From the NCBI GenBank assembly GCA_025060475.1, contig JANXBZ010000004.1, positions 1-64,000 on the forward strand: 64,000 nucleotides of DNA, given 5' to 3'. This document shows positions 1 through 12,671 of this stretch, piece after piece; the first letter of the stretch is position 1; each line of letters opens with the position of its first letter. Source of the stretch: Dictyoglomus sp. GTDB taxonomy: Bacteria; Dictyoglomota; Dictyoglomia; Dictyoglomales; Dictyoglomaceae. Made by a program: the position numbers and the translations under genes. Under the pieces are notes generated by a model. That model saw only the letters and a program-made list of their open reading frames with translations, ran no database searches and was not told the DNA's origin.

Positions 1-974
1 TTATTAGTTATTTCCTTGTAATATTTGTAGGACTTACCATTGTTTTTATTGTTCCCCGTTTAAGCCCTATAGATCCTGTTCAACAAATGATTAACACTAT
101 AACTATGATGGGAACTTATATGGATCCAGAGGCTATAGAAAAATTAACCGAGACTCTAAAGGATCTTTATGGACTAAGAGGATCGTTATGGCAACAGTAT
201 CTAACTTTCTGGGGAAGATTTTTAAGAGGTGATTTTGGACCATCATTTTTTAGATTTCCTGTTCCTGTTATAAAGCTTATTGGAGATTCTCTTCCTTGGA
301 CTATAGGACTTTTAAGTATATCGACCTTTTTATCTTGGCTTATAGGAAATATTTTGGGAGGGCTATGCGGTTTCTTTTATCAAAAAAGATGGGCAAGAGC
401 TTTGGAAAATATAGCTATGGTTATTCGCCCAATTCCTTATTATATTTTTGCTTTTATATTATTACTCGTCTTTGGATATTTTTTAAAACTTTTTCCCATA
501 GCAGGAGGTTTTGGTATAGGTTCTACCCCATCCTTTAGTTTAAGATTTATTACAGAACTTATTAGACATGCTTTCCTTCCTCTCTTATCCATGATGACCC
601 TAGGAATTGCAGTTACCCTTCAATCCATGAGATTAATAGTTCAAAATGTTCTAAGAGAAGACTTTATTGTTTTTGCAAAGGCGGGAGGAGTTAGAAACAG
701 AACCCTTCTTTTCAAATATGCCATAAGAAATGCTATGCTTCCTCAGATTACTGGTCTTGCTCTTTCTATGGGTCAAATCTTTGGAGGAGCACTAATAACA
801 GAAATTGTATTTTCCTATCCTGGTATGGGAACTTTACTTTATAACGCAATAAATACTGGAGATTATAATTTAATAATGGGAATAACTGCCATATCCATTA
901 TTGGAATTGCAACCTTTATTTTAATTATAGATCTTTTATACCCATTATTTGATCCAAGAATAAGGTATAGATAG
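1..974 (+). CDS. Opp/Dpp-type ABC importer permease, OppB-like (5' end outside window)
   Basis: Inner-membrane permease subunit of a peptide/oligosaccharide-class ABC importer. The reading frame is open from base 3 and encodes a typical OppB N-terminus (a hydrophobic helix, then VPRLSPIDP), so the gene begins before the window and the first ATG at 87 is internal. About five further hydrophobic segments follow, with the ATPase-coupling loop region around 670-740 (DFIVFAKAGGVRNRTLLFKYAIRNA) and the family ending LYPLFDPRIRYR. It is followed 14 bases later by an OppC-like gene and belongs to the 1-10695 operon. In thermophilic fermenters such importers often carry oligosaccharides rather than peptides; the downstream alpha-glucuronidase makes aldouronic acids a reasonable inferred substrate. 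The binding protein is presumably upstream. Confidence 0.9.
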   Translation, partial: ISYFLVIFVGLTIVFIVPRLSPIDPVQQMINTITMMGTYMDPEAIEKLTETLKDLYGLRGSLWQQYLTFWGRFLRGDFGPSFFRFPVPVIKLIGDSLPWTIGLLSISTFLSWLIGNILGGLCGFFYQKRWARALENIAMVIRPIPYYIFAFILLLVFGYFLKLFPIAGGFGIGSTPSFSLRFITELIRHAFLPLLSMMTLGIAVTLQSMRLIVQNVLREDFIVFAKAGGVRNRTLLFKYAIRNAMLPQITGLALSMGQIFGGALITEIVFSYPGMGTLLYNAINTGDYNLIMGITAISIIGIATFILIIDLLYPLFDPRIRYR

Positions 975-988
975 GAGGAGAAAGAAAA

Positions 989-1849
989 GTGAATGTATTA
1001 AGAGATCTTTTAAGAGATGGGAAATTTAGATTTGGCTTTATAGTTATATGTATCCTTTTATTCTTAGCCTTTTTATCTTTCTTTTGTCCCTATGATCCCA
1101 CAAGATGGAATATTTTTCCACGGGATCTTCCTCCTTCTTTTCAACATATCTTAGGAACAAACTCAAAGGGACAAGATGTCTTTTGGGAAGCAACCTTTGC
1201 CATAAGAAATTCTCTTATTATATCAGTAATTGCAGCACTATTCTCACGAATAATTGCTATAATTGTAGGATTAGTTGCAGGATATTTAGGAGGAAGAGTG
1301 GATAGATTTTTAATGTTCTTAAGTGATAGTTTCCTTATCTTACCTCTTCTTCCCATATTGATATTGATATCCTCTCTAATAAAAGGTCATTTAAGTTTAT
1401 TTTCTTTAGGTATTCTTCTTGGGATATTTGGATGGCCTTGGGATGCAAGATTAATAAGAGCTCAGGTTCTAAGTTTGAGAGAAAGAGAATTTACATATAC
1501 TTCTATTTTGTCAGGTTATTCAACTCTAAATTTAGTAATAAAAGAGTATTTCCCCTTTGTTCTTCCTTTAGTGTTCTCCACAGTAATTAACAATATGGGA
1601 TGGAGTATAGGATTAGAAGTAACATTATCTATTTTAGGATTATCAAATCTTGCCATTCCTACCCTTGGAACAACCCTTCACTGGGCAATAAATTATCAAG
1701 CTATGCTTCTTGGCATTTGGTGGTGGCTACTAACTCCCATTGTAATTTCAGTGTTTTTATTCATAAGTTTATATCTTCTTTCCGTAAGTATAAGTGAATA
1801 TTCGGATCCTAGAACAAGAATTCAAAGAATAGGAATAGCAAAGGAGTGA
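989..1849 (+). CDS. Opp/Dpp-type ABC importer permease, OppC-like
   Basis: Second inner-membrane permease of the importer, 286 residues. It starts at GTG 989 after the SD sequence AGGAGG near 973-978. An N-terminal helix (about 15-37) is followed by the OppC hallmark HILGTNSKGQDVF (about 53-65), five more hydrophobic segments, and the conserved IFGWPWDARLIRAQVLSLREREF coupling stretch around 150-170. It ends with the family-typical DPRTR tail. It lies between OppB-like and OppD-like genes with gaps of 14 and 4 bases, consistent with one transcript. Paralogous to the OppC-like protein at 29910-30752, which shares the same motif order. Confidence 0.9.
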   Translation: MNVLRDLLRDGKFRFGFIVICILLFLAFLSFFCPYDPTRWNIFPRDLPPSFQHILGTNSKGQDVFWEATFAIRNSLIISVIAALFSRIIAIIVGLVAGYLGGRVDRFLMFLSDSFLILPLLPILILISSLIKGHLSLFSLGILLGIFGWPWDARLIRAQVLSLREREFTYTSILSGYSTLNLVIKEYFPFVLPLVFSTVINNMGWSIGLEVTLSILGLSNLAIPTLGTTLHWAINYQAMLLGIWWWLLTPIVISVFLFISLYLLSVSISEYSDPRTRIQRIGIAKE

Positions 1850-1853
1850 AAAA

Positions 1854-2846
1854 ATGGCGATACTAAAAGCGGAAAATCTAAAATCCTTTTATATATTAGA
1901 CATTTATGGAAGAAAGCAAATAGTTCAAGCAGTAAATGGGGTTTCCTTAGAAGTTGAAGAAAATGAAATATATGGAATAGCAGGAGAATCAGGCTGTGGA
2001 AAAAGCACTTTAGTGAAGGTATTATATGGTATGTTGGAACCCCCATTAACTCTTATTGATGGTAATGTTTTTTATAGAAAAAATGGAGAGTTTATCAGTA
2101 TATTTACCCTTTCTGAAGAAGAGATTCAAGATCTGAGATGGAAATTTATTTCCTATATTCCTCAAGGATCTATGAACGTTTTAAATCCCGTTATAAAAAT
2201 TATTGATTCTTTTTGGGACTTTATTGGAGCTCATGTAGCAAAGGATGAAAAAGAGAAGATGGAAAATTCATTATTTGAATTTTTTAAGATGTTAGGCTTA
2301 CCCTCAAAAACCTTATTTGCCTACCCTCATCAGCTCTCGGGTGGTATGAGGCAAAGGGTAATCGTTGCCTTGGCAACCTTTTTAAACCCGAAAGTAATAA
2401 TTGCAGACGAGCCAACTACTGCCTTAGATGTAGTAGCCCAAAGGGGAGTATTACAACTTTTAAAGTCTGTTCAGAGTATTTTAAATAATACAATAATTCT
2501 TGTTACTCATGATATGGGAGTTCATGCAACAACATCCGATAGGATTGGAATTATGTACGCAGGAAATATAATTGAAGAGGCAAAAACAGAAGAATTATAT
2601 GAAAATCCTCTTCATCCTTATACCCAATATTTAATAAGATCTTTACCTAAGATAGGGGATAAATCTTATAAAGTAAGTGCCCCAGGAACTCCCCCGTCCC
2701 TTGCCAATCCCCCATCAGGCTGTAAGTTTCATCCAAGATGTAACTATGCTATGGAAGAATGTAAAATAAATGTTCCAAAATTTGTGGAGATAAAACCTCA
2801 ACATAAGGTTGCATGTTTCCTATATTCAAAGGAGGTAGATTCATGA
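1854..2846 (+). CDS. Opp/Dpp-type ABC importer ATPase, OppD/DppD-like
   Basis: ATP-hydrolysing subunit of the importer, 330 residues. Visible motifs are Walker A GESGCGKST (44-52), signature LSGGMRQR, Walker B VIIADEPT and the H-loop VTHD. The C-terminal oligopeptide-transport extension keeps four cysteines, C290, C296, C303 and C321, in the spacing that binds an iron-sulfur cluster in characterised DppD-type ATPases. It starts 4 bases after the permease stop and overlaps the next gene in an ATGA junction, so the two ATPases are translationally coupled and probably form a heterodimer. Confidence 0.92.
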   Translation: MAILKAENLKSFYILDIYGRKQIVQAVNGVSLEVEENEIYGIAGESGCGKSTLVKVLYGMLEPPLTLIDGNVFYRKNGEFISIFTLSEEEIQDLRWKFISYIPQGSMNVLNPVIKIIDSFWDFIGAHVAKDEKEKMENSLFEFFKMLGLPSKTLFAYPHQLSGGMRQRVIVALATFLNPKVIIADEPTTALDVVAQRGVLQLLKSVQSILNNTIILVTHDMGVHATTSDRIGIMYAGNIIEEAKTEELYENPLHPYTQYLIRSLPKIGDKSYKVSAPGTPPSLANPPSGCKFHPRCNYAMEECKINVPKFVEIKPQHKVACFLYSKEVDS

Positions 2847-3805
2847 CAAATAATAACTATATTCTAAAAGTTGAGAATTTAACAAAGATATTTACTTTAG
2901 GAAATATCTTTTCCAGAATAAAAATTGTTGCAGTGAACAATGTATCCTTCGAGATAAAAGAAGGAGAAATATTTACCTTAGCAGGAGAAAGCGGTAGTGG
3001 AAAAACTACTGTTGCAAGAATAATTTTGGGATTTCATGAGCCCACCTCAGGAAGAATAATCTACAAAGGAAAGGATATAACAAGTTTAAATAAAGAAAAC
3101 AGAAATTTCTTTAGAAGAGAGGTACAAGCAATATTCCAGAACCCCTTTGAAACTTTTAATCCCTTGAGAAAAGTCTCTAGCTACTTATATGAAACCTTAG
3201 AAAATTTTAATATCACAAAGGAAAATATGGACGAAATAGTAGATAATGCTTTAAGATCAGTAGGATTATCAAGAGAAGAAGTTATAGATAAGTATCCTAG
3301 CGAGTTTTCAGGAGGACAGCTTCAAAGAATATCAGTAGCAAGAGCATTAATAACAAAGCCCTCTCTTTTAATCGCAGATGAGCCTGTATCCATGATAGAT
3401 GCTTCCTTAAGAATGTCCATTGTAAATCTTTTTAAGGATTTAAAAGAGAAAAATAACGTGAGTGTCATATATATAACCCATGACCTTGCCACTGCATATT
3501 ACATAAGTGATAAGATAGCTATTATGTTCCGAGGAGAAATCGTAGAATTGGGAGAAGTAGAAAAGGTACTAATGAACCCCAAACATCCATACACAATGGT
3601 TCTTTACGAATCTATTCCAGAGCCTGATCCCAAAAAGAAGTGGAAAAAACAAATCTCTCTTTCTGCTTTTGAAGAAGAGGAATTCTTATTGAAAGGATGT
3701 AAATTTGCAAAAAGATGTTCTTTTGTTATGGATGATTGTACAAAGGAAGAAATTCCATATTTTGAAGCTAACGGTAGAAAAGTTAAATGCTTACTCTATA
3801 GATAG
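2843..3805 (+). CDS. Opp/Dpp-type ABC importer ATPase, OppF/DppF-like
   Basis: Second ATPase of the importer, 320 residues from ATG 2843. An in-frame ATG at 2813 exists but lies inside the upstream gene; 2843 has the SD GGAGGTAG just before it (2831-2838) and overlaps the upstream stop by ATGA. Walker A GESGSGKTT, signature FSGGQLQR, Walker B LLIADEPVSMID and H-loop ITHD are present. Unlike the partner of the second importer (31747-32565), it also keeps the C-terminal four-cysteine extension (C286, C292, C299, C316). The next gene, a corrinoid protein, follows 11 bases later, tying transport to methyl transfer. Confidence 0.92.
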   Translation: MTNNNYILKVENLTKIFTLGNIFSRIKIVAVNNVSFEIKEGEIFTLAGESGSGKTTVARIILGFHEPTSGRIIYKGKDITSLNKENRNFFRREVQAIFQNPFETFNPLRKVSSYLYETLENFNITKENMDEIVDNALRSVGLSREEVIDKYPSEFSGGQLQRISVARALITKPSLLIADEPVSMIDASLRMSIVNLFKDLKEKNNVSVIYITHDLATAYYISDKIAIMFRGEIVELGEVEKVLMNPKHPYTMVLYESIPEPDPKKKWKKQISLSAFEEEEFLLKGCKFAKRCSFVMDDCTKEEIPYFEANGRKVKCLLYR

Positions 3806-3816
3806 GAGGACCAAAA

Positions 3817-4461
3817 ATGGTGGAACTTTCTGAGATTGCATCCGCCTTAATAGAGGGAAATAGAAAAAAGGTTCAGGAATTAGTAGAATTAGCAATTAAA
3901 GAAGGTATACCTCCTGAGAGAATACTAAATGAGGGACTACTTGCAGGAATGCAAGTAATAGGAGAAAGATTTAAAAATAATGAAATTTTTGTTCCTGAAG
4001 TTCTAATTTCCGCAAGAGCAATGCATGCAGGAATGAACTTATTAAAACCTCTGCTTGCAAAATCTCAAGGAATTTTAAAAGGAAAGGTAGTTATAGGAAC
4101 TGTAAAAGGAGATCTACATGATATAGGGAAAAATCTTGTTGCAATGATGCTAGAAGGAGCAGGTTATCAAGTAATTGATCTAGGAATAGATGTGGATGCT
4201 GAAAAATTTGTAGAAGCAGTTAAAACTCATAATCCTGATATATTAGGAATGTCCGCTTTATTAACCACAACTATGCCTTATATGAGAACAACTATCGAAG
4301 CTCTAGAGAAAGAAGGAGTAAGGGATAAGGTTAAGGTAATTGTGGGAGGAGCACCTGTTACCGAAGAATTTGCAAAGGAGATAGGTGCAGATGGATACGC
4401 AGATTCTGCAAGTTCTGCTGTAGAATTAGTTGATAATCTCTTGGGAATAAAAAGTGCCTAA
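3817..4461 (+). CDS. Corrinoid (cobalamin-binding) methyl carrier protein, MtaC-like
   Basis: Methyl-carrying corrinoid protein of a methyltransferase system, 214 residues. The N-terminal four-helix cap (about 1-85, with ALIEGNRKKVQELVE and GERFKNNEIFVPEVL) is followed by a Rossmann-like B12-binding domain. The base-off/His-on motif DxHxxG is intact as D99-L-H101-D-I-G104, with H101 the lower cobalt ligand. Members of this family (MtaC, MtbC, MtvC and others) accept a methyl group on Co(I) from a substrate-specific methyltransferase and pass it to a second methyltransferase. It sits after the ABC ATPases (SD GATAGGAGGACC) and its end overlaps the activator gene. The family does not fix the substrate. 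Confidence 0.93.
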   Translation: MVELSEIASALIEGNRKKVQELVELAIKEGIPPERILNEGLLAGMQVIGERFKNNEIFVPEVLISARAMHAGMNLLKPLLAKSQGILKGKVVIGTVKGDLHDIGKNLVAMMLEGAGYQVIDLGIDVDAEKFVEAVKTHNPDILGMSALLTTTMPYMRTTIEALEKEGVRDKVKVIVGGAPVTEEFAKEIGADGYADSASSAVELVDNLLGIKSA

Positions 4462-6184
4462 AATAACAATATATCCTGAAAATATTGAAATATACATTTC
4501 TGAAGAAGAAAATCTTTTAAGAGTATTACAAAAAAATAAAATAGGGATAAATTCCTACTGTGGAGGAGAAGGATGGTGTGGAAAATGCAAAGTACTAGTA
4601 AAAGAAGGAAATCCTTCTCCTCTTACTTTAAAGGAAAAAAGAATCTTAACAGAAGAAGAAATAGAAAAGAGAATAAGACTTGCCTGCCAGATAAGAGTTA
4701 AAGAGGATATTAAAATAGAAGTATTAAACAGAATAAAAGAATTAGATATTATTTATCGATTTAATTTAGATTTAAATCTAGAGTTTAATCCAGTAATTTC
4801 TATTCAAAGTTTTTCCCTTCCTTTGCCTAATCTTTATGATCAAACTTCTGATACAGAAAGATTATTAAGGGCAAAAAAGGGCTTAAAAATTAAAAATATA
4901 AATCTTATAAGAAAAATTCCAAGGTTTTTAAGGGAAAATAATTTTCAAGGTAAATTAGTTATATATGAAGATGAGATTATAGATATAAGAGAGGAAGAAT
5001 TTGATTCTCCTTTAGGAGTTGCCTTTGATATAGGGACCACGACTTTAGTAGGATATCTTTTAGATTTAAAAAGAGGCAAAGAAATAGATATAATTACCTA
5101 TTTAAATCCCCAGAGTTTTTATGGAAGTGATATAATCTCAAGAATAACCTATGCTATAAATTCCAAGGATGGAATAAAAATTTTAAAAGAAACAATTCTT
5201 TCTTCCCTTAAAGAGATGATAGAAACTATTTGCTCTAAAAATAACTTATCTCCAAAGGACATATATGCCTTTTCCATCGCAGGAAATCCTACTATGGTTC
5301 ATCTTCTCTTGGGAATAAATCCAGAATATATCTCTGTTTCTCCCTATGTTCCTGTAATATCTTCAGGAATGATCTTAGATTCTCAAGATTTAGATCTTAA
5401 TATTTCTCCTTTTGCAAAAGTTTATATTCTACCTAATATTTCGGGATATGTAGGAGGAGATATAATAGCGGGAATTTTAGCAATAGGATTATGGAAGGAG
5501 AAGGGAAATATATTGTTTGTAGACGTAGGAACCAATGGAGAAATTGTATTAAAAACCAAGAAGGGAATATTCTCCTGTGCTACAGCAGCAGGACCTGCCT
5601 TTGAAGGGGGACATATAAGCTCTGGAATGATAGCAAAGGAAGGAGCTATTAATCGTGTTTGGTTAGAAAATAATGATGTGAAATTCAGCGTTATAGGAGA
5701 TAAAAAGGAAGAAGGAATCTGTGGTTCAGGAATAATAGATGCAGTAAAAGTAATGTTGGATCTTAATATTATTGATAAAACAGGAAGATTTAATAAAGGG
5801 GAATACTTTTCCCTAGGAGACGTAAAAATTACCCAAAGGGATATAAGAGAATTTCAGCTTGCAAAATCCGCTATAAGAACGGGAATAGAAATTTTGTTAA
5901 AGGATGCAAAGACGACTTTTAATAATATCGATAAGATATATTTAGCAGGAGCCTTTGGAAACTATTTAAATAAAGATAGCATTCTAAGAATTGGGTTATT
6001 GCCTCCTATTAATCCTGAAAAAATTATTTTTGTAGGAAACTCCGCAGGAAAAGGTGCGGAATTAGTTCTTCTTAACAAAGACTTTATAGATTTGGCAGAA
6101 AAACTAAGAAAAGAAATTATCTATATAGAGCTTTCAGGAAGAAAGGATTTTCAAGACTATTTTGTGGAATTTATGTACTTTTAA
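4454..6184 (+). CDS. Reductive activator of corrinoid proteins (RACo family; 2Fe-2S plus ASKHA domain)
   Basis: Repairs the corrinoid cofactor by ATP-dependent reduction of inactive Co(II) to Co(I). The 576-residue protein starts at GTG 4454, overlapping the corrinoid gene by 8 bases with little SD, so translation is probably coupled. The N-terminal ferredoxin domain has a plant-type 2Fe-2S set C36, C42, C45 and C78 (CGGEGWCGKC then RLACQ). A linker leads to the large DUF4445/ASKHA-type domain beginning around 185 (GVAFDIGTTTLVGYLLDL), with FVDVGTNGEIVL and AAGPAFEGG typical of the RACo family. The archaeal RamA uses a different Fe-S arrangement, so this is the bacterial type. Its placement argues that the neighbouring corrinoid protein is catalytically active. 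Confidence 0.92.
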   Translation: MPKITIYPENIEIYISEEENLLRVLQKNKIGINSYCGGEGWCGKCKVLVKEGNPSPLTLKEKRILTEEEIEKRIRLACQIRVKEDIKIEVLNRIKELDIIYRFNLDLNLEFNPVISIQSFSLPLPNLYDQTSDTERLLRAKKGLKIKNINLIRKIPRFLRENNFQGKLVIYEDEIIDIREEEFDSPLGVAFDIGTTTLVGYLLDLKRGKEIDIITYLNPQSFYGSDIISRITYAINSKDGIKILKETILSSLKEMIETICSKNNLSPKDIYAFSIAGNPTMVHLLLGINPEYISVSPYVPVISSGMILDSQDLDLNISPFAKVYILPNISGYVGGDIIAGILAIGLWKEKGNILFVDVGTNGEIVLKTKKGIFSCATAAGPAFEGGHISSGMIAKEGAINRVWLENNDVKFSVIGDKKEEGICGSGIIDAVKVMLDLNIIDKTGRFNKGEYFSLGDVKITQRDIREFQLAKSAIRTGIEILLKDAKTTFNNIDKIYLAGAFGNYLNKDSILRIGLLPPINPEKIIFVGNSAGKGAELVLLNKDFIDLAEKLRKEIIYIELSGRKDFQDYFVEFMYF

Positions 6185-6200
6185 AAGAAGGAGGATTTCT

Positions 6201-7580
6201 ATGGTAACAAGGAAAACTTTTAGAGAATTAGCGTATTTATCAAAGGATGAAGTTGTCTTTGGAAGGGCCAAGTATCCTTTAGAATGTGGTTTTGGTGTAG
6301 AGATAGGAAAAGGAAAGGTTTTGCCTGAAGTTAATTTTACCCTTCCTCCTATGAGCATTAATGAGAATAACATATCTGAAGTTAGAAAGAGATTTAAAGA
6401 TATGGTAAGTCGTATATTGAATAAAGCAGTAGAATTAGAGCAGGAATCATTGGTTTTAGAATTTGAACATCTTTATGAGCTTACAAAGAATCCTGAATGG
6501 GGAGCAATTATTACCTCTGATATTAAAAAAATAATGGAAGAATTTAATAATAAATACGGTCTGAAATCTGCATTGAGAGTTACAATAGCGGATATTAGAG
6601 ATCAAGAAAGACCACCCAAAATGAGAACAGGAAAATTAACGGAAATCATGCTTAAGTCCTTTGAATTATGTGCAAAGGAAGGAGCGGATATATTATCCAT
6701 AGAAAGCACCGGAGGAAAAGAAATCCATGATAGAGCATTATTAGAAGGAGATTTAGAGGGAATAGTCTTTTCCCTAGGAGTTCTTGCAGAAAGGGACATG
6801 GAATTTTTGTGGGAAAATATTGTGAAGATTTCAAAAAAATACAATGTAATACCAGGAGGAGATACTGCATGTGGCTTTGCTAATACAGCTATGCAACTTT
6901 CCCATCAAGGCATGCTACCTAAAGTATTAGCGTCTGTGGTTCGTTTAATGAGTGCTCCACGTTCTCTAATTGCCATTGAGATGGGAGCTTTAGGTCCCTT
7001 AAAGGACTGTGGCTATGAGAATCCTATCCTAAAAATAATAACAGGAGTTCCCATAAGTATGGAGGGAAAAAGTAGTGCCTGTGCCCATTCCTCTCCTCTT
7101 GGAAATATATCATCCTATGCTTGTGATCTATGGAGTAATGAATCAGTTCAGGATGTAAGACTTCTTTCGGGATTTGCTCCTGAAGTATTTACAGAAATTC
7201 TTATTTATGATTGTAGATTAATGAATACTGCATTAAAAACAGGTTTTGAAAAAAATCTAAGGGATTTATTTATCTTATCTGATATTTATTTAGATCCTCA
7301 AGCTTTAGTAATGAGTTTAGATGTTGCCTATGAATCCGCAAAGAAAATTGTAAGTGTAGAAAATAATTATCAAAGAACATTAGAGTTAGGAAAATATGCT
7401 ATCTCTATCCTAAAGGATTCTTTGGAAAAAGGGGAGATAGAAATCAAGGCAAGAGAAAAAAGTTGGCTTTATAAGCTTCAAGAAGATTTGGAAAGTCTAC
7501 CCCAAAATTATGAAGAAATTTTTGAAAGGATTTGCGAGAATTATAAAGATCTATTCTTAAAAGAAGAATATGGATTTTAA
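6201..7580 (+). CDS. MtaB-family zinc methyltransferase (substrate:corrinoid methyltransferase, MT-I)
   Basis: Substrate-activating methyltransferase that moves a methyl group to the corrinoid protein. I chose ATG 6201 (459 residues) because the SD AAGGAGG lies 7 bases before it; an earlier in-frame ATG at 6162 is inside the activator gene. It matches MtaB, the methanol:corrinoid methyltransferase of methanogens and acetogens, over its whole length. Candidate zinc ligands E168, C224 and C270 (in SIEST, DTACGF and KDCGYE) have nearly the spacing known for Methanosarcina MtaB (Glu164, Cys220, Cys269). The family is known for methanol, but the next gene is a GH67 enzyme that releases 4-O-methylglucuronate, so the real substrate may be that sugar ether or methanol derived from it; this is inference. 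Confidence 0.88.
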
Positions 7581-7591
7581 GGGTGATAATT

Positions 7592-9640
7592 ATGGAAAAT
7601 TTCAAAAAGTATGATATGTGCTGGTTAGAATATAAGCCTCTGGAAAATAGAGAAGAATATAAAGAATGGGAAAACGTTGTTATACTTGAAAATTACTATA
7701 ATATAAAACCGTGTGTTGAAGAACTTAAGCTCTTCTTTCAAAATTCTTTAAATATAGACCTAAAATTTTATAAGAATTTTATAGAAAAACCTTCAATTAT
7801 TATTGGAAAACTTGAGAAAATAAAAGAAATATTTAGAATAGCAAAAGATTTGGAAAATCTAATTAACGATGAGGGATTTGTAATAAAACATATTAATTCA
7901 AAGGATATTCCAAGAATCATAATTACAGGAAAGAGTTTAAATTCCTTAATTTATGGAGTCTTTGAATTTATAAAGAGGATTAGGCTAAAGGAAAAAATTA
8001 CTAGTTTAGATACTTTTGAAAATCCAAAAGTAAAATTCAGGATGATAAATCACTGGGATAATTTGGATGGAACCATTGAGAGAGGATATGCAGGAAATTC
8101 TATATTCTTTAAGGACAACAAGATCATATATTCTGAGAGAATTAAAGATTATGCAAGACTTTTAGCTTCTATAGGAATAAATGCTATAGTTCTAAATAAT
8201 GTAAATGTTAAAAAGAAGGAAGTAGAATTGATTGAGAAACATTATCTTAAAAAGCTTCTAAGAATTGCAAAAATATTTGAGAGTTATGGAATTAAAATAT
8301 ATCTTTCTATAAATTTTGCCTCTCCTATATATTTGGGAGGATTAAGTACTGCGGATCCTCTCTCCTACGAAGTAGCTTTATGGTGGAAGAAAAAGGCAGA
8401 AGAAATTTATAATATTATACCTAATTTTGGTGGATTCTTAGTTAAAGCAGATTCAGAGTTTAACCCAGGACCCCATATGTACGGAAGAACCCACGGAGAT
8501 GGAGCAAATATGCTAGCAAAAGCTCTTGCTCCCTTTAATGGACATGTAATCTGGAGAGCCTTTGTATATAACTGCATGCAAGACTGGAGAGATACAAAAA
8601 CTGATAGAGCTAAAGCTGCATATGATAATTTTAAACCCTTAGATGGGGTCTTTGATGATAATGTTATTTTGCAGATAAAATATGGGCCCATGGATTTTCA
8701 GGTAAGAGAACCTGTTTCTCCTCTTTTTGGAGCTTTAGAAAAAACAAATCAAATTCTTGAACTACAGATAACTCAGGAATATACTGGTCAACAGATTCAT
8801 CTCTGCTATTTAGGAACCTTATGGAAAGAGATTTTAGAGTTTGATACTTATGCAAAGGGAGAAGGATCTACGGTTAAAAAAATTCTTGAGGGAAAAGTAT
8901 TTAGTAATAAAAATTACGGTTTTGCTGGAGTTTCCAATATTGGAGATAGTATAAACTGGACAGGACATGATTTAGCTCAAGCAAATCTTTGGACTTTTGG
9001 AAGGCTCTCATGGAATCCTGACGAAAACGTAGAAAAGATAGTGAATGAATGGATAAGATTAACCTTTGGGGATGATAAAAAAGTCATTGAAAATATCTCG
9101 TATATGCTTTTGAATTCTCATAGAATATATGAGAAATATACTACTCCTCTTGGTTTAGGATGGATGGTAAATCCTGGCAGCCATTATGGTCCAAATCCAG
9201 AAGGATATGAATATTCTCATTGGGGAACATATCATAGAGCGGATTTTAAAGCTATAGGAGTTGATAGAACTTCTAGCGGAACAGGCTTTACCCTTCAGTA
9301 TTATTCTCCCTGGAGGGAAATTTTTGACGACATTAAAAAATGTCCTGAGGAGTTAATATTGTTTTTCCACAGAGTTCCTTATGATTTTAAGCTAAAATCG
9401 GGAAAAACCCTATTACAATTTATATACGATTCCCACTTTGAAGGAGCGGAAGAGACAGAAATCTTAAAAGAGAAATGGCTAGAACTTGAAGGGAAAATTG
9501 AAAAAAGCAAATTTGAAAGGGTATTAGAAAAATTAAACCAACAAATTTGGCATGCCAAGGAATGGAGGGATGTAATCAACACATATTTTTATAGAAAAAC
9601 AGGAATTCCCGATGAAAAGGGAAGAAAAATTTATCCTTGA
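7592..9640 (+). CDS. aguA: GH67 alpha-glucuronidase
   Basis: Cleaves the alpha-1,2 bond between (4-O-methyl)glucuronic acid and the terminal xylose of short xylo-oligosaccharides. It is 682 residues from ATG 7592, preceded by GGGTGA; a GTG at 7583 is the alternative. There is no signal peptide, so it is cytoplasmic and acts on imported fragments. An N-terminal glycosidase-associated domain precedes the TIM barrel, which begins with the GH67 stretch [18 protein letters not shown] (157-174). Candidate catalytic residues E289 ([10 protein letters not shown]), D368 ([10 protein letters not shown]) and E396 (QEYTGQ) have exactly the spacing of Glu285, Asp364 and Glu392 of the Geobacillus enzyme. 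It lies between two methyltransferase genes, a context that suggests its product is demethylated. Confidence 0.93.
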
Positions 9641-9654
9641 GGAGGAAAAAGTAA

Positions 9655-10695
9655 ATGAACGAAAAACAATGGGAAATAATACTAAATTGTGCAAATCTTA
9701 AACCTTTAGATAAAATTCCTATTGGTTTAATTGTTGATAGCCCATGGATTCCTGGATTTCTCGGTATTTCCCATTTGAAGTTTTATGCAATTCCTGAAAT
9801 ATGGCTAAATTCCTATTTTGAGATTAAAAGAAGATTTCCTGAGATAATTTTTATTCCAGACTTTTGGGTAGAATATGGAATGGCTCAGGAACCTTCTGGT
9901 TTTGGAGCAAAAATTACTTTTAATGAGAACTCTACACCAAATATTCATCCCATTATTCCTTCTGCGGATGATCTAGGAGAATATTTAAAAAAAATAAAAA
10001 CTCCAAATCCTAAAACCGATGGTTTTATGCCCTTTATTTTAGAATTTTACAAATATGTAGAACCTAAAATAAAAGAAAAGGGAGAATTTATAAAGATTGT
10101 TGCATCAAGAGGTCCCTTTGCCATTGCGTCCCATATTATGGGAGTATCTGAATTTTTAATATCAGTAAAAATATATCCTGAAGAAGCAAAAAAACTTATT
10201 GATATTACCACTAATCTAGTTATTGATTGGCTTTCTGCTCAAATAGAAATATTAAGAGATTCCGAGGGAATTCTTGTATTAGACGACATAGTAGGATTCT
10301 TCTCTGAAGAGGATTATCTAGAATTTTGCCATCCATCCTTGAAAAGAATTTTTTCTTATTTTAATTTTCCCGTAAAAATCTATCACAACGACACAAATAA
10401 CCCTGTCTTTTATAAATATCTTCCTGATTTAGGGATAAATATATTTAATTTCACCCATCTTCAAAACATAAAGGATGTTTACGAAAAAACCCAAGGGAAG
10501 ATTTGTCTTATGGGAAATATTCCTCCTTTAGACGTGCTAGTAAAGGGAACTCCTGAAGACGTTAAAAAGTATGCTAAAGATATATTAAAAGAATTCTCCT
10601 CAAAAAGGGGACTTATTCTTTCTGCAGGAGGAGGAGTATCTCCAGGAACTCCTGAAGAAAATATAAGAGCTTTAATTGAGATAGTAGGAATTTAA
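9655..10695 (+). CDS. UroD/MtaA-superfamily protein, probable second methyltransferase (MT-II)
   Basis: 346-residue member of the uroporphyrinogen decarboxylase superfamily, which includes MtaA/CmuA-type enzymes that take methyl from the corrinoid protein. SD GAGGAGG lies 12 bases before ATG 9655. In MtaA a His-x-Cys and a later Cys bind zinc to activate a thiol acceptor. Here the first site reads H244-N-D246 and the position of the later cysteine reads LSAGGG (322-327), so both zinc cysteines are absent. That argues against coenzyme M chemistry and leaves the acceptor (a folate, another thiol or something else) open. As the last gene of the methyltransferase operon it is the natural MT-II, but a heme role is not suggested by context. 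Confidence 0.75.
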   Translation: MNEKQWEIILNCANLKPLDKIPIGLIVDSPWIPGFLGISHLKFYAIPEIWLNSYFEIKRRFPEIIFIPDFWVEYGMAQEPSGFGAKITFNENSTPNIHPIIPSADDLGEYLKKIKTPNPKTDGFMPFILEFYKYVEPKIKEKGEFIKIVASRGPFAIASHIMGVSEFLISVKIYPEEAKKLIDITTNLVIDWLSAQIEILRDSEGILVLDDIVGFFSEEDYLEFCHPSLKRIFSYFNFPVKIYHNDTNNPVFYKYLPDLGINIFNFTHLQNIKDVYEKTQGKICLMGNIPPLDVLVKGTPEDVKKYAKDILKEFSSKRGLILSAGGGVSPGTPEENIRALIEIVGI

Positions 10696-10723
10696 AATCT
10701 CTATTTAAAACTAAAAAAATTCA

Positions 10724-10732
10724 TGGTATAAT
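10724..10732 (+). promoter_or_regulatory. Extended -10 promoter before the CBM lipoprotein operon
   Basis: TGGTATAAT is an extended -10 element with no clear -35. A start about 7 bases downstream would place the palindrome at 10741-10758 directly over the start site, the usual geometry for repression. Confidence 0.5.
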
Positions 10733-10821: not shown

Positions 10822-11925
10822 GTGAGAAGTCACCAAAATTTAATTAAGTTTTTAGCTATTTTACTGATAGTTTCTCTTATTAGTGGATGTCAACCTCCTT
10901 TAAAACCACCGGCGGCACCAAGTAATTTACAAGCGGAAGCGCTATCTAAAACGGAAATAAGATTAACTTGGAAGGATAATTCAAATAATGAGGACGGATT
11001 TAAAATCGAAAGAAAAACCACTGATGGAACATACACTTTAATTGGAAGTGTAGGTGCCAATGTTACAACTTATACTGATACGAATCTGAATCCCGCAACT
11101 ACATATTATTATAGAGTATATGCCTATAACTCTGCAGGAAATAGCGGATATTCTAATGAGGCATCAGCAACTACATTAGCTCCTGGTGCTCCAAATCCTC
11201 CTTCCAATCTGCAAGCTGTAGTACAATTCCCCAATAAGATTGTTTTAAGTTGGCAAGACAACTCAGAGGACGAGGAGGGATTTAAAATCTATAGAAAGCT
11301 TCCAGGAGGAAATTGGGAGCTTATTGGAACTGTTGGTGCAAATATAACTCAACATGAGGAAACACCTCCTGTTTTAACTCTACTTGAATATAGAGTAACA
11401 GCATATAGTGCTTATGGAGAAAGTACTCCTGCAACAGCAAGTGTTCAAGGATTTATCCTTATTTCAACCTTTGAAGAAGGAACAGGAGCTTGGTATGGAA
11501 GAGGTGGATGTTCCATCGAAAGAAGTTCTACTGTAGCAAACACAGGACAATATTCCTTAAGAGTCTTCGGAAGAGATGCTACCTGGAAGGGACCTGCAAT
11601 AACACTATATGCAAGTAATGTAAATACTATCACTCCAGGAAAAACTTATCGTATATACATATGGGGATATCAAAGTACGGGAGACACTCAAAGTCTTACT
11701 GTAACTATGGAAAGAAAGTTACAAGATGGTAGTACAAGATGGGATACCATAGTATGGCGACACCCTACACCCACAAATACATGGACTCTCCTCTCAGGAA
11801 CATATACTTTTCCTGCGAATTTAGGAACACAAACAGATACAATAAGAGCCGATCTTTATGTGGAATCTCCAAATGCCTCATTGGAATTTTATATCGATGA
11901 TGTTGCTATTGTAGAAAGACCTTAA
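10822..11925 (+). CDS. Lipoprotein with two fibronectin type III domains and a C-terminal carbohydrate-binding module
   Basis: Surface or periplasmic lipoprotein, 367 residues, starting at GTG 10822 after SD AAAGGAGGGAT. The signal peptide ends in lipobox LISGC with C23 as the lipidated residue. Two FnIII domains follow (about 31-118 and 123-210; each has the LTWKDNSNNEDGFKIER / LSWQDNSEDEEGFKIYR opening). The last 155 residues form a CBM4/9-like beta-sandwich (from LISTFEEGTGAWYG to LEFYIDDVAIVER). No catalytic domain is visible, so it probably binds polysaccharide at the cell surface. The CBM is paralogous to the one in the next gene. Expression is probably controlled by the operator at 10741-10758. 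Confidence 0.8.
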   Translation: MRSHQNLIKFLAILLIVSLISGCQPPLKPPAAPSNLQAEALSKTEIRLTWKDNSNNEDGFKIERKTTDGTYTLIGSVGANVTTYTDTNLNPATTYYYRVYAYNSAGNSGYSNEASATTLAPGAPNPPSNLQAVVQFPNKIVLSWQDNSEDEEGFKIYRKLPGGNWELIGTVGANITQHEETPPVLTLLEYRVTAYSAYGESTPATASVQGFILISTFEEGTGAWYGRGGCSIERSSTVANTGQYSLRVFGRDATWKGPAITLYASNVNTITPGKTYRIYIWGYQSTGDTQSLTVTMERKLQDGSTRWDTIVWRHPTPTNTWTLLSGTYTFPANLGTQTDTIRADLYVESPNASLEFYIDDVAIVERP

Positions 11926-11940
11926 AAAAATTACTATATC

Positions 11941-11972
11941 TCTCCCCTGGGATAATATAGTCCCAGGGGAGA
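11941..11972 (+). other. Intercistronic 12-bp perfect hairpin
   Basis: TCTCCCCTGGGA (11941-11952) and TCCCAGGGGAGA (11961-11972) form a perfect 12-bp stem with an 8-base loop. No T-run follows it on the + strand, so it is not a normal intrinsic terminator. Its place 15 bases after one lipoprotein gene and 28 before the next suggests protection of the upstream mRNA end or partial termination. Confidence 0.6.
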
Positions 11973-11999
11973 AGAATTTAAGTTAAGGGGGGAAAAATT

Positions 12000-12671
12000 T
12001 TGAAAAAGTACAGTATATTTATTTTGATAGTTATTTATTTATACTCTCTTTTTATTACAGGATGCGCAAGACCAATAGAAGTACCATCAACTTCTCCAGC
12101 TCCCTCTGAACCTATTCCTAAGACTGAAGTTCAAATTCCAAAGGCAGAAGAAATAAAAGGACTTATTCTCTTAACCACTTTTGAAACAGGGGAAGAAGGA
12201 TGGCAACCTTTTGGAGGAGGGGTAAAGATAAGTATTTCTGAAAAAGTCGCTCGTTCTGGAAAATTTAGTCTTTACGTTGAAGGAAGAAGTGCTGGATGGC
12301 ATGGAGCCCAAATACCTCTAAAAAATATCCTGCAACCTGGAAAAACTTATAATATCTCAACCTGGATTTACCAAGAAAGTGGAACTGATCAAAGAATGAT
12401 CTTAACTATGAGAAGAAAATACAGTACTGACGAAAGTACTCAGTATAACTGGATCAGAGCTCAATTTGTACCTAATAAAAAATGGACAGAGTTTAGAGGA
12501 TCATACAGTATACCATCAGGTGCAATAATTGAGGATTTAGCTTTATATATAGAAGCTCCTGATAATGCGAATCTTACATTTTATATTGATGATTTAGTTA
12601 TAACAGAAAAAGGATCCTCCTTTAAATTAAATCCTGAGCTATTAACCCTTATATCTAAGTATATCAAATAA
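12000..12671 (+). CDS. Lipoprotein with a single carbohydrate-binding module
   Basis: 223-residue lipoprotein starting at TTG 12000, chosen because the purine-rich SD AAGGGGGG (11985-11992) lies just before it and a signal peptide begins at once. The lipobox is FITGC with C22 as the lipidated cysteine. A Pro/Ser-rich linker (about 23-50) leads to a CBM4/9-like domain (LLTTFETGEEGWQPFGGG to LTFYIDDLVITEKG, about 55-207). The domain aligns with the C-terminal domain of the preceding lipoprotein, so the pair arose by duplication of this module. Likely role: polysaccharide capture at the envelope. Confidence 0.75.
   Translation: MKKYSIFILIVIYLYSLFITGCARPIEVPSTSPAPSEPIPKTEVQIPKAEEIKGLILLTTFETGEEGWQPFGGGVKISISEKVARSGKFSLYVEGRSAGWHGAQIPLKNILQPGKTYNISTWIYQESGTDQRMILTMRRKYSTDESTQYNWIRAQFVPNKKWTEFRGSYSIPSGAIIEDLALYIEAPDNANLTFYIDDLVITEKGSSFKLNPELLTLISKYIK

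Follow-up and report, generated by a model that had tools for sequence, protein, structure and literature searches.

An operon of Dictyoglomus, a heat-loving plant-fibre degrader, combines a GH67 alpha-glucuronidase gene with a corrinoid methyl-transfer system. We propose, with a probability of roughly 0.42, that it processes the side chains of glucuronoxylan, with UroD1, a protein of the UROD superfamily, serving as methyltransferase (MT-I) for the sugar ether and MtaB as a second methyl port. The genes lie in a stretch of 64,000 nucleotides (the window), and five of them, encoding an MtaC-type corrinoid protein, its reductive activator RACo, MtaB, GH67 and UroD1, are intact between positions 3817 and 10695.

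The substrate we infer is 4-O-methylglucuronate, which hardwood xylan commonly carries as its acidic side group. The importer encoded upstream would bring aldouronic acids into the cell, GH67 would free 4-O-methylglucuronate from them, and UroD1 would transfer its 4-O-methyl group onto Co(I)-MtaC, so that glucuronate is left to be catabolised, with RACo keeping MtaC in its active state. MtaB would either bring in a methyl group derived from methanol or, more speculatively, run in reverse and release the sugar methyl group as methanol. Such an exit would explain why MtaB occurs in only two Dictyoglomota genomes, both of which are without UroD2, a thiol-type UROD protein found in sister genomes.

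The operon and its conservation

All of the genes lie on the + strand. Two permease and two ATPase genes of an Opp/Dpp-family ABC importer (87..3805, with the first permease truncated by the start of the contig) are followed by those for MtaC (3817..4461), RACo (4454..6184), MtaB (6201..7580, with a likely ATG start at 6201), GH67 (7592..9640) and UroD1 (9655..10695), and from OppC to UroD1 neighbouring genes overlap or are at most 16 bp apart. The 126-bp gap 3' of UroD1 contains a promoter-like site (TTTAAA-N17-TATAAT, with TG before the second hexamer; 10704..10732, + strand), suggesting that the operon ends at UroD1, the site being a consensus match of a kind no commoner than chance expectation in the region around it. 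The operon is kept in a second Dictyoglomus-group species (locus L004, genome G006) at 73-96% protein identity, pN/pS values for its genes are 0.05-0.30 between the two, and it is under purifying selection across these two species. Coordinates and spacing agree with the preliminary description, which saw a single tight operon of five parts downstream of an importer. The importer is of the Opp type and is incomplete in the window, its binding-protein gene having been lost at the contig edge; L004 holds a complete importer (L004:20-5290) that includes this gene (L004:20-1348). No cobalamin or other riboswitch was matched by Rfam in the window, in L004 or in two Thermotogota loci discussed below (L009 and L012), and we rejected riboswitch control.

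The catalytic residues named earlier for MtaC, RACo, MtaB and GH67 are all present, and all five proteins exceed their Pfam cut-offs by a wide margin. MtaC matches the B12-binding_2 and B12-binding domains (PF02607/PF02310) and bears the D99/H101/G104 motif, and RACo has all four of its Pfam domains (2Fe-2S, linker, middle and C-terminal), including the 2Fe-2S cysteines C36/C42/C45/C78. GH67 is identified by PF07488/07477/03648, with 528 bits for the middle domain, and its triad E289/D368/E396, numbered from the better-placed likely start (ATG 7592, preceded by AAGGGTG), lines up with E285/D364/E392 in the G. stearothermophilus enzyme of known structure (1mqp). Activity on xylan oligosaccharides has been verified for Dtur_1714, the GH67 of D. 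turgidum (PMC5167688), and the window enzyme is predicted to release (4-O-methyl)glucuronate from xylo-oligosaccharides. MtaC is the sole B12-binding_2 protein found in the window genome, MtaC and RACo are each present in one copy in all seven Dictyoglomota genomes, and every genome with UroD1 has one of each, in the same operon in two cases.

UroD1 as the partner of GH67

UroD1 matches the URO-D domain (PF01208) at 149 bits, and its AlphaFold model (pLDDT 90) is closest in the PDB to MtbA (4ay7/4ay8, TM 0.77-0.80). In NCBIfam it matches the MtaA/CmuA families best, with HemE behind, and direct scores against three reference proteins are 38 bits (MtbA), 35 (CdmB) and 34 (UROD). Its active site reads H244-x-D246...G326 at positions where MtbA and the UroD2 proteins of sister genomes carry the thiol-zinc site H-x-C...C. 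Residues E73, D122, R152, D211, H244 and D246 of UroD1 are invariant. Lacking these zinc cysteines, UroD1 appears not to be an MT-II of the MtaA/MtbA type, and we rejected that candidate; the earlier label of a UroD/MtaA-like MT-II finds no support in the same residues. Active-site comparison, adjacency to GH67 and predicted fold instead point to a UROD-superfamily methyltransferase of a non-thiol type. The superfamily includes known O-demethylase MT-Is (PMC13222342, PMC10418091), and our analysis suggests UroD1 as a candidate 4-O-methylglucuronate:corrinoid methyltransferase.

The distribution of the genes bears on this assignment. GH67 is present in all seven Dictyoglomota genomes, and in each of the six with an assembled junction it is followed on the same strand by UroD1 at a distance of 10-18 bp; four of these six are without MtaB, which is absent from 5/7 genomes overall. 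The pair spans two genera at ~70% identity, with different flanking genes. This adjacency, kept where MtaB is absent, indicates that UroD1 is the long-standing partner of GH67. MtaC lies at the GH67-UroD1 locus in three of the seven genomes, one of which (G005) has no MtaB; there the sole corrinoid protein is encoded 26 bp beyond the pair. The same Opp genes are found 3-7 kb upstream of GH67 in two further genomes (G003 and G004). The proposal of a corrinoid pathway coupled to GH67 stands as far as the operon is concerned, which is present in both MtaB-bearing genomes of the phylum, and lacks support in the roles that it gave to MtaB and to an MT-II.

Some observations count against UroD1 as the demethylase. 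Its linkage to GH67 is seen in Dictyoglomota only: the four clear relatives in other phyla either have GH3, enolase-family or Gfo/Idh genes nearby or sit in surroundings without an evident tie to sugars, and since none adjoins GH67 we rejected them as support for the linkage. We also identified no methyl exit for the window genome, in which we found no MtrH, no thiol-type UROD protein and, among Pterin_bind genes, only a DHPS-like one. In favour of the assignment, two related MtaB loci, L009 and L012 of Thermotogota, pair MtaB and MtaC with non-thiol UROD proteins in sugar-type operons that also hold TRAP transporters, a FucI-family isomerase and two DHDPS-family genes, and four genomes without MtaB have a LacI-type gene, resembling sugar regulators, ahead of MtaC-RACo-UroD2. 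A broader proposal, that UroD1 and the other non-thiol UROD proteins from sugar-type operons (Dictyoglomota, Thermotogota, Armatimonadota) form an unrecognised class of corrinoid-dependent anaerobic sugar O-demethylases, sharing one corrinoid protein per Dictyoglomota genome and with MtaB as methanol exit, strikes us as decidedly doubtful.

MtaB, methanol and the methyl acceptor

The preliminary description assigned demethylation of 4-O-methylglucuronate onto MtaC to MtaB, with the UROD protein as an MT-II passing the methyl group on. That MtaB is a zinc methyltransferase is borne out by PF12176 (565 bits, cut-off 25) and by alignment of E168/C224/C270 with the zinc ligands of M. barkeri MtaB (2i2x), which are invariant in 82 sequences. 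A role on the sugar could draw on the presence of MtaB, MtaC, RACo, GH67 and UROD in one operon in two species, on a clade (SH-aLRT 99) separate from the Moorella and Sporomusa methanol enzymes, and on a score of 479.7 bits against the NCBIfam methanol-MtaB model NF040651, under its equivalog cut-off of 720, although this model is by name aimed at methanogen enzymes and such a score is compatible with methanol. Against it stand the five genomes that have GH67 but no MtaB (in four of these the GH67-UroD1 junction is assembled) and the missing thiol-zinc cysteines of the supposed MT-II. Nor do the residues of MtaB set its clade apart from methanol enzymes: only five alignment columns are specific to the clade, M. 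barkeri matches the window clade at three of them, and with no consistent contrast we discarded these differences as a putative sugar pocket. The survey for GH67 beside this MtaB clade elsewhere returned 1/80 related loci, many with short flanks, and that one belongs to the sister species; linkage to GH67 is therefore no general trait of the clade. We regard a sugar-demethylating MtaB as distinctly unlikely. From its domain, the 2i2x alignment and the phylogeny, MtaB is probably a methanol-specific enzyme and a second methyl port on MtaC; to our knowledge, the role on record for MtaB is on the methyl donor side only.

A methanol-type MtaB also fits a scheme in which MtaB uses methanol, an option that the preliminary description had already raised. 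The methanol would arise from 4-O-methylglucuronate (or its keto isomer) by beta-elimination of the 4-methoxyl group, or else come from other plant polymers, and UroD1 would be an acceptor-side enzyme of a new kind that delivers the methyl group to folate or another acceptor. UROD-fold proteins are the classic MT-IIs, and clustered FTHFS, FolD-like, MetV and MetF genes could take up methyl-folate. We know of no UROD-fold folate methyltransferase, however, the elimination step comes from chemical reasoning with no gene attached, and GH67-UroD1 is kept in genomes that lack MtaB and thus methanol entry, so that we consider this route unlikely. Folate MT-IIs of the AcsE/MeTr or MtgA/MtrH type were not found across the seven genomes: PF02007 (MtrH-type) has no match in any, and PF00809 has a single match per genome in 5/7 (~400 aa long, with a score of ~290 bits, where the frame is complete), which we read as DHPS from score and copy number. 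Use of MtaC by a MetH-type methionine synthase was likewise rejected, there being no second B12-binding_2 protein. Alternatively, the corrinoid genes might belong to methyl-sulfur or methionine metabolism, with other reasons behind the locus they share with GH67. HcyBio and NIL genes (homocysteine synthesis) follow MtaC-RACo-UroD2 in four genomes, UroD2 has the thiol-zinc site, and UROD-family corrinoid clusters with methyl-sulfur or selenide roles are known (PMC10418091). Yet a split-MetE-like gene pair (split MetE has been described previously, PMC7857596) already accounts for methionine synthesis in 7/7 genomes, UroD1 adjoins GH67 and not sulfur genes, and the window operon is without a thiol-type UROD protein, which makes this explanation very unlikely. 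The methyl-sulfur genes could instead be the acceptor side of the pathway that we favour, in which UroD1 would demethylate the sugar.

Significance and comparison with known systems

Open-access literature yielded aromatic ethers, small methyl compounds and, for a different sugar, a P450 route that depends on oxygen, and we found in it neither corrinoid demethylation of a sugar ether nor anaerobic demethylation of 4-O-methylglucuronate. If the proposed role of UroD1 is right, a known kind of corrinoid system gains a new substrate class. With a corrinoid sugar demethylase, O-demethylation would reach beyond lignin-type aromatics to carbohydrates, and plant-fibre breakdown would be linked with methyl, methanol and possibly methionine metabolism. 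Some of the "uroporphyrinogen decarboxylase-like" genes of polysaccharide degraders, which are numerous and unassigned, would also gain a function.

The MtaABC methanol:CoM system of M. barkeri and the MtaBC systems of acetogens have the MtaB fold, its zinc ligands and an MtaC-type protein in common with the window, whose genome differs in having no MtaA-type thiol methyltransferase and an MtaB in a separate clade. The GH67 loci of xylanolytic bacteria, like that of the window, place GH67 behind an ABC importer; we know of no description of corrinoid methyl-transfer genes as part of them. The aromatic O-demethylases (MtvB/OdmB/VdmB/MtoB with MtvC/MtoC, an activating enzyme and an MT-II) resemble the window in having a UROD-superfamily MT-I (a candidate in our case), an MtaC-like protein and an ATP-dependent reductive activator, and act on an ether methyl group, as proposed here (PMC8630106, PMC13222342). 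The window system differs from them in its glycoside hydrolase link and in its proposed substrate, an ether of an aliphatic sugar acid; we found none of the known folate MT-II families in its genome, and UroD1 is no nearer to CdmB, a relative of these enzymes, than to MtbA or UROD. In marine porphyran degraders, a cytochrome P450 oxidatively demethylates 6-O-methyl-D-galactose, likewise a sugar methyl ether from polysaccharide breakdown (PMC10033563); that route requires oxygen and yields formaldehyde, whereas the window system would be anaerobic and corrinoid-based.

Operon content and conservation

The window genome (1.72 Mb, 99.6% complete) is placed in the Dictyoglomota by its Dictyoglomus-like genes and its closest relatives, and the window lies at the beginning of its contig C4. 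A single operon (87-10695, + strand) encodes an Opp-type ABC importer, an MtaC-type corrinoid protein, the reductive activator RACo, MtaB, a GH67 alpha-glucuronidase and UroD1, a UROD-superfamily protein (9655-10695). From OppC to UroD1 the genes overlap or are separated by at most 16 bp, a 126-bp gap follows UroD1, and Pfam domains confirm each protein. The residues listed in the preliminary description (MtaC D99/H101/G104, RACo C36/C42/C45/C78, MtaB E168/C224/C270, GH67 E289/D368/E396) were all recovered in the window proteins, those of MtaB and GH67 aligning with solved structures, and its GH67 numbering matches a start at ATG 7592, the most likely start codon. The importer's first permease is truncated by the contig start (87), and the solute-binding protein gene is missing because the contig begins inside the operon; the full importer set, including the binding protein, is present in the sister genome G006 (L004:20-5290). 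At this locus the operon layout is identical and the proteins are 73-96% identical to those of the window, with pN/pS of 0.05-0.30, which, together with the kept operon, indicates that the genes are maintained.

Just past the operon (10822-12671), two lipoprotein-like proteins carry CBM_4_9 carbohydrate-binding domains; a 1044-aa protein upstream of GH67 in another genome, G004 (L104:11041-14175), is 43% identical to one of them.

UroD1 as a candidate MT-I

Each of the seven Dictyoglomota genomes compared contains one strong GH67 match, one MtaC and one RACo, and only two contain MtaB. UroD1 lies 10-18 bp 3' of GH67 in all six genomes with an assembled junction, whether or not MtaB is present, and is 72-85% identical to the window protein in those six. 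Since the genes upstream of GH67 vary between genomes, the GH67-UroD1 pair is the constant unit, a linkage so far confined to one phylum. In G005, which lacks MtaB, the genome's sole MtaC gene ends 26 bp past UroD1 on the opposite strand.

MT-IIs of the MtaA/MtbA type, which pass the methyl group on to an acceptor, activate the acceptor thiol by zinc held on an H-x-C...C motif. UroD2, the UROD protein found beside MtaC-RACo elsewhere, carries this motif; UroD1 has H-x-D without a matching second cysteine, in all Dictyoglomota and in its Acidobacteria and Verrucomicrobia relatives, so the earlier labelling of UroD1 as an MtaA-type MT-II had to be abandoned. The O-demethylase MT-Is MtvB, OdmB, VdmB and MtoB, together with the chloromethane enzyme CdmB, belong to the same superfamily (PMC13222342; PMC10418091), which makes an MT-I role for UroD1, passing the methyl group from donor to MtaC, reasonable. 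The nearest structure to the predicted model of UroD1 (pLDDT 90) is MtbA, followed by uroporphyrinogen decarboxylase. UroD1 scores about equally against CdmB, MtbA and UROD, so its sequence does not single out this role.

We tentatively regard UroD1 as the most likely MT-I of a predicted 4-O-methylglucuronate demethylation, with a probability of about 0.4; GH67-linked corrinoid demethylation of this sugar acid in outline, by this or the previously proposed route, has somewhat better than even odds. That a methanol-fed MtaB supplies the corrinoid protein, with UroD1 as acceptor enzyme, is unlikely and ranks second. We rank third, and doubt, the original proposal that MtaB itself is the sugar demethylase. 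Sugar genes recurrently adjoin related MtaB genes in examples that were picked rather than surveyed statistically, and several near-clade loci have no sugar context; GH67 lies nearby at 1 of 80 related MtaB loci, namely L004. Window MtaB falls in a 16-member clade (SH-aLRT 99) of Dictyoglomota, Thermotogota, Chloroflexota, Armatimonadota and others, separate from the Moorella and Sporomusa enzymes. M. barkeri MtaB is among the 82 sequences compared, in which 55 positions are invariant, zinc ligands among them; only five columns distinguish the clade from acetogen MtaB, and M. barkeri sides with the window clade at three of these. Nothing in the sequences points to a new pocket.

An unrelated methyl-sulfur role of the corrinoid genes ranks last and seems improbable; the surroundings of UroD2 bear on it. 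In four second-genus genomes MtaC-RACo stands away from GH67-UroD1, in one operon with thiol-type UroD2, with a LacI-type regulator 5' and HcyBio and NIL/4Fe-4S genes 3' (L140:7794-14800; conserved in L141, L142 and L143). HcyBio and NIL genes serve homocysteine synthesis, and the cluster may encode a corrinoid pathway that leads from some methyl donor to methionine. RACo of G005 adjoins a UroD2-like protein that has diverged further, with about 37% identity to the other UroD2s. MtaB and thiol-type UroD2 are mutually exclusive, co-occurring in none of the seven genomes.

Fate of the methyl group

The methyl group could plausibly leave through UroD2 to homocysteine in the five UroD2 genomes. 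The two MtaB genomes have no thiol-type UROD, so MtaB may run in reverse, releasing methanol, or some other acceptor may serve. MtrH-family proteins are absent from all seven genomes, and the sole Pterin_bind match, considered as a folate methyltransferase, was rejected as resembling dihydropteroate synthase. MetF occurs in all seven genomes and FTHFS in six, the two sharing one cluster where this was read (G000, G004); the G000 annotation adds MetV and places a FolD-like protein between MetF and FTHFS. A split-MetE-like pair of adjacent genes, present in all seven (in G000 at L185:7529-9531, contig C11), can provide for methionine synthesis.

Related loci and known systems

A Thermotogota operon (L009:1-13196, L012:1578-11179) combines two TRAP transporters (both in L009), an L-fucose-isomerase-family gene, two DHDPS-family genes, a non-thiol UROD, MtaC, MtaB and RACo, and looks like a pathway for breaking down a methylated sugar or sugar acid. 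MtaC and MtaB sit with a MetH-activation-like protein and a thiol-type UROD in a Bacteroidales Sus-type polysaccharide locus (L034:1711-17358, also L038 and L040), their neighbours being common to three genomes; the L034 annotation lists SusC/D/E-like proteins, GH13, GH3 and GH127. GH10, GH2 and a UROD lie near MtaB and MtaC in Ignavibacteria (L039). On contig C3 of G006, a TRAP transporter, two more UROD-like proteins, a DHDPS-family gene and a LacI-like regulator stand in a row (L148:5660-10819). A third UROD protein, of the H-x-D type, adjoins a zinc alcohol dehydrogenase and a flavoprotein in both G000 (L145:7756-11734, contig C2) and G006 (L147:1-8206, contig C63); the G006 locus additionally holds a Gfo/Idh oxidoreductase and a probable tripartite tricarboxylate transporter.

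Searches of the open-access literature turned up neither the combination of GH67 with corrinoid genes nor a sugar methyl ether serving as substrate. In the D. turgidum genome paper GH67 is reported to be active on xylan oligosaccharides, and a term search of that paper returned no mention of cobalamin or uroporphyrinogen (PMC5167688). Taken one by one, the components are already known: corrinoid O-demethylases, MtaB and GH67.
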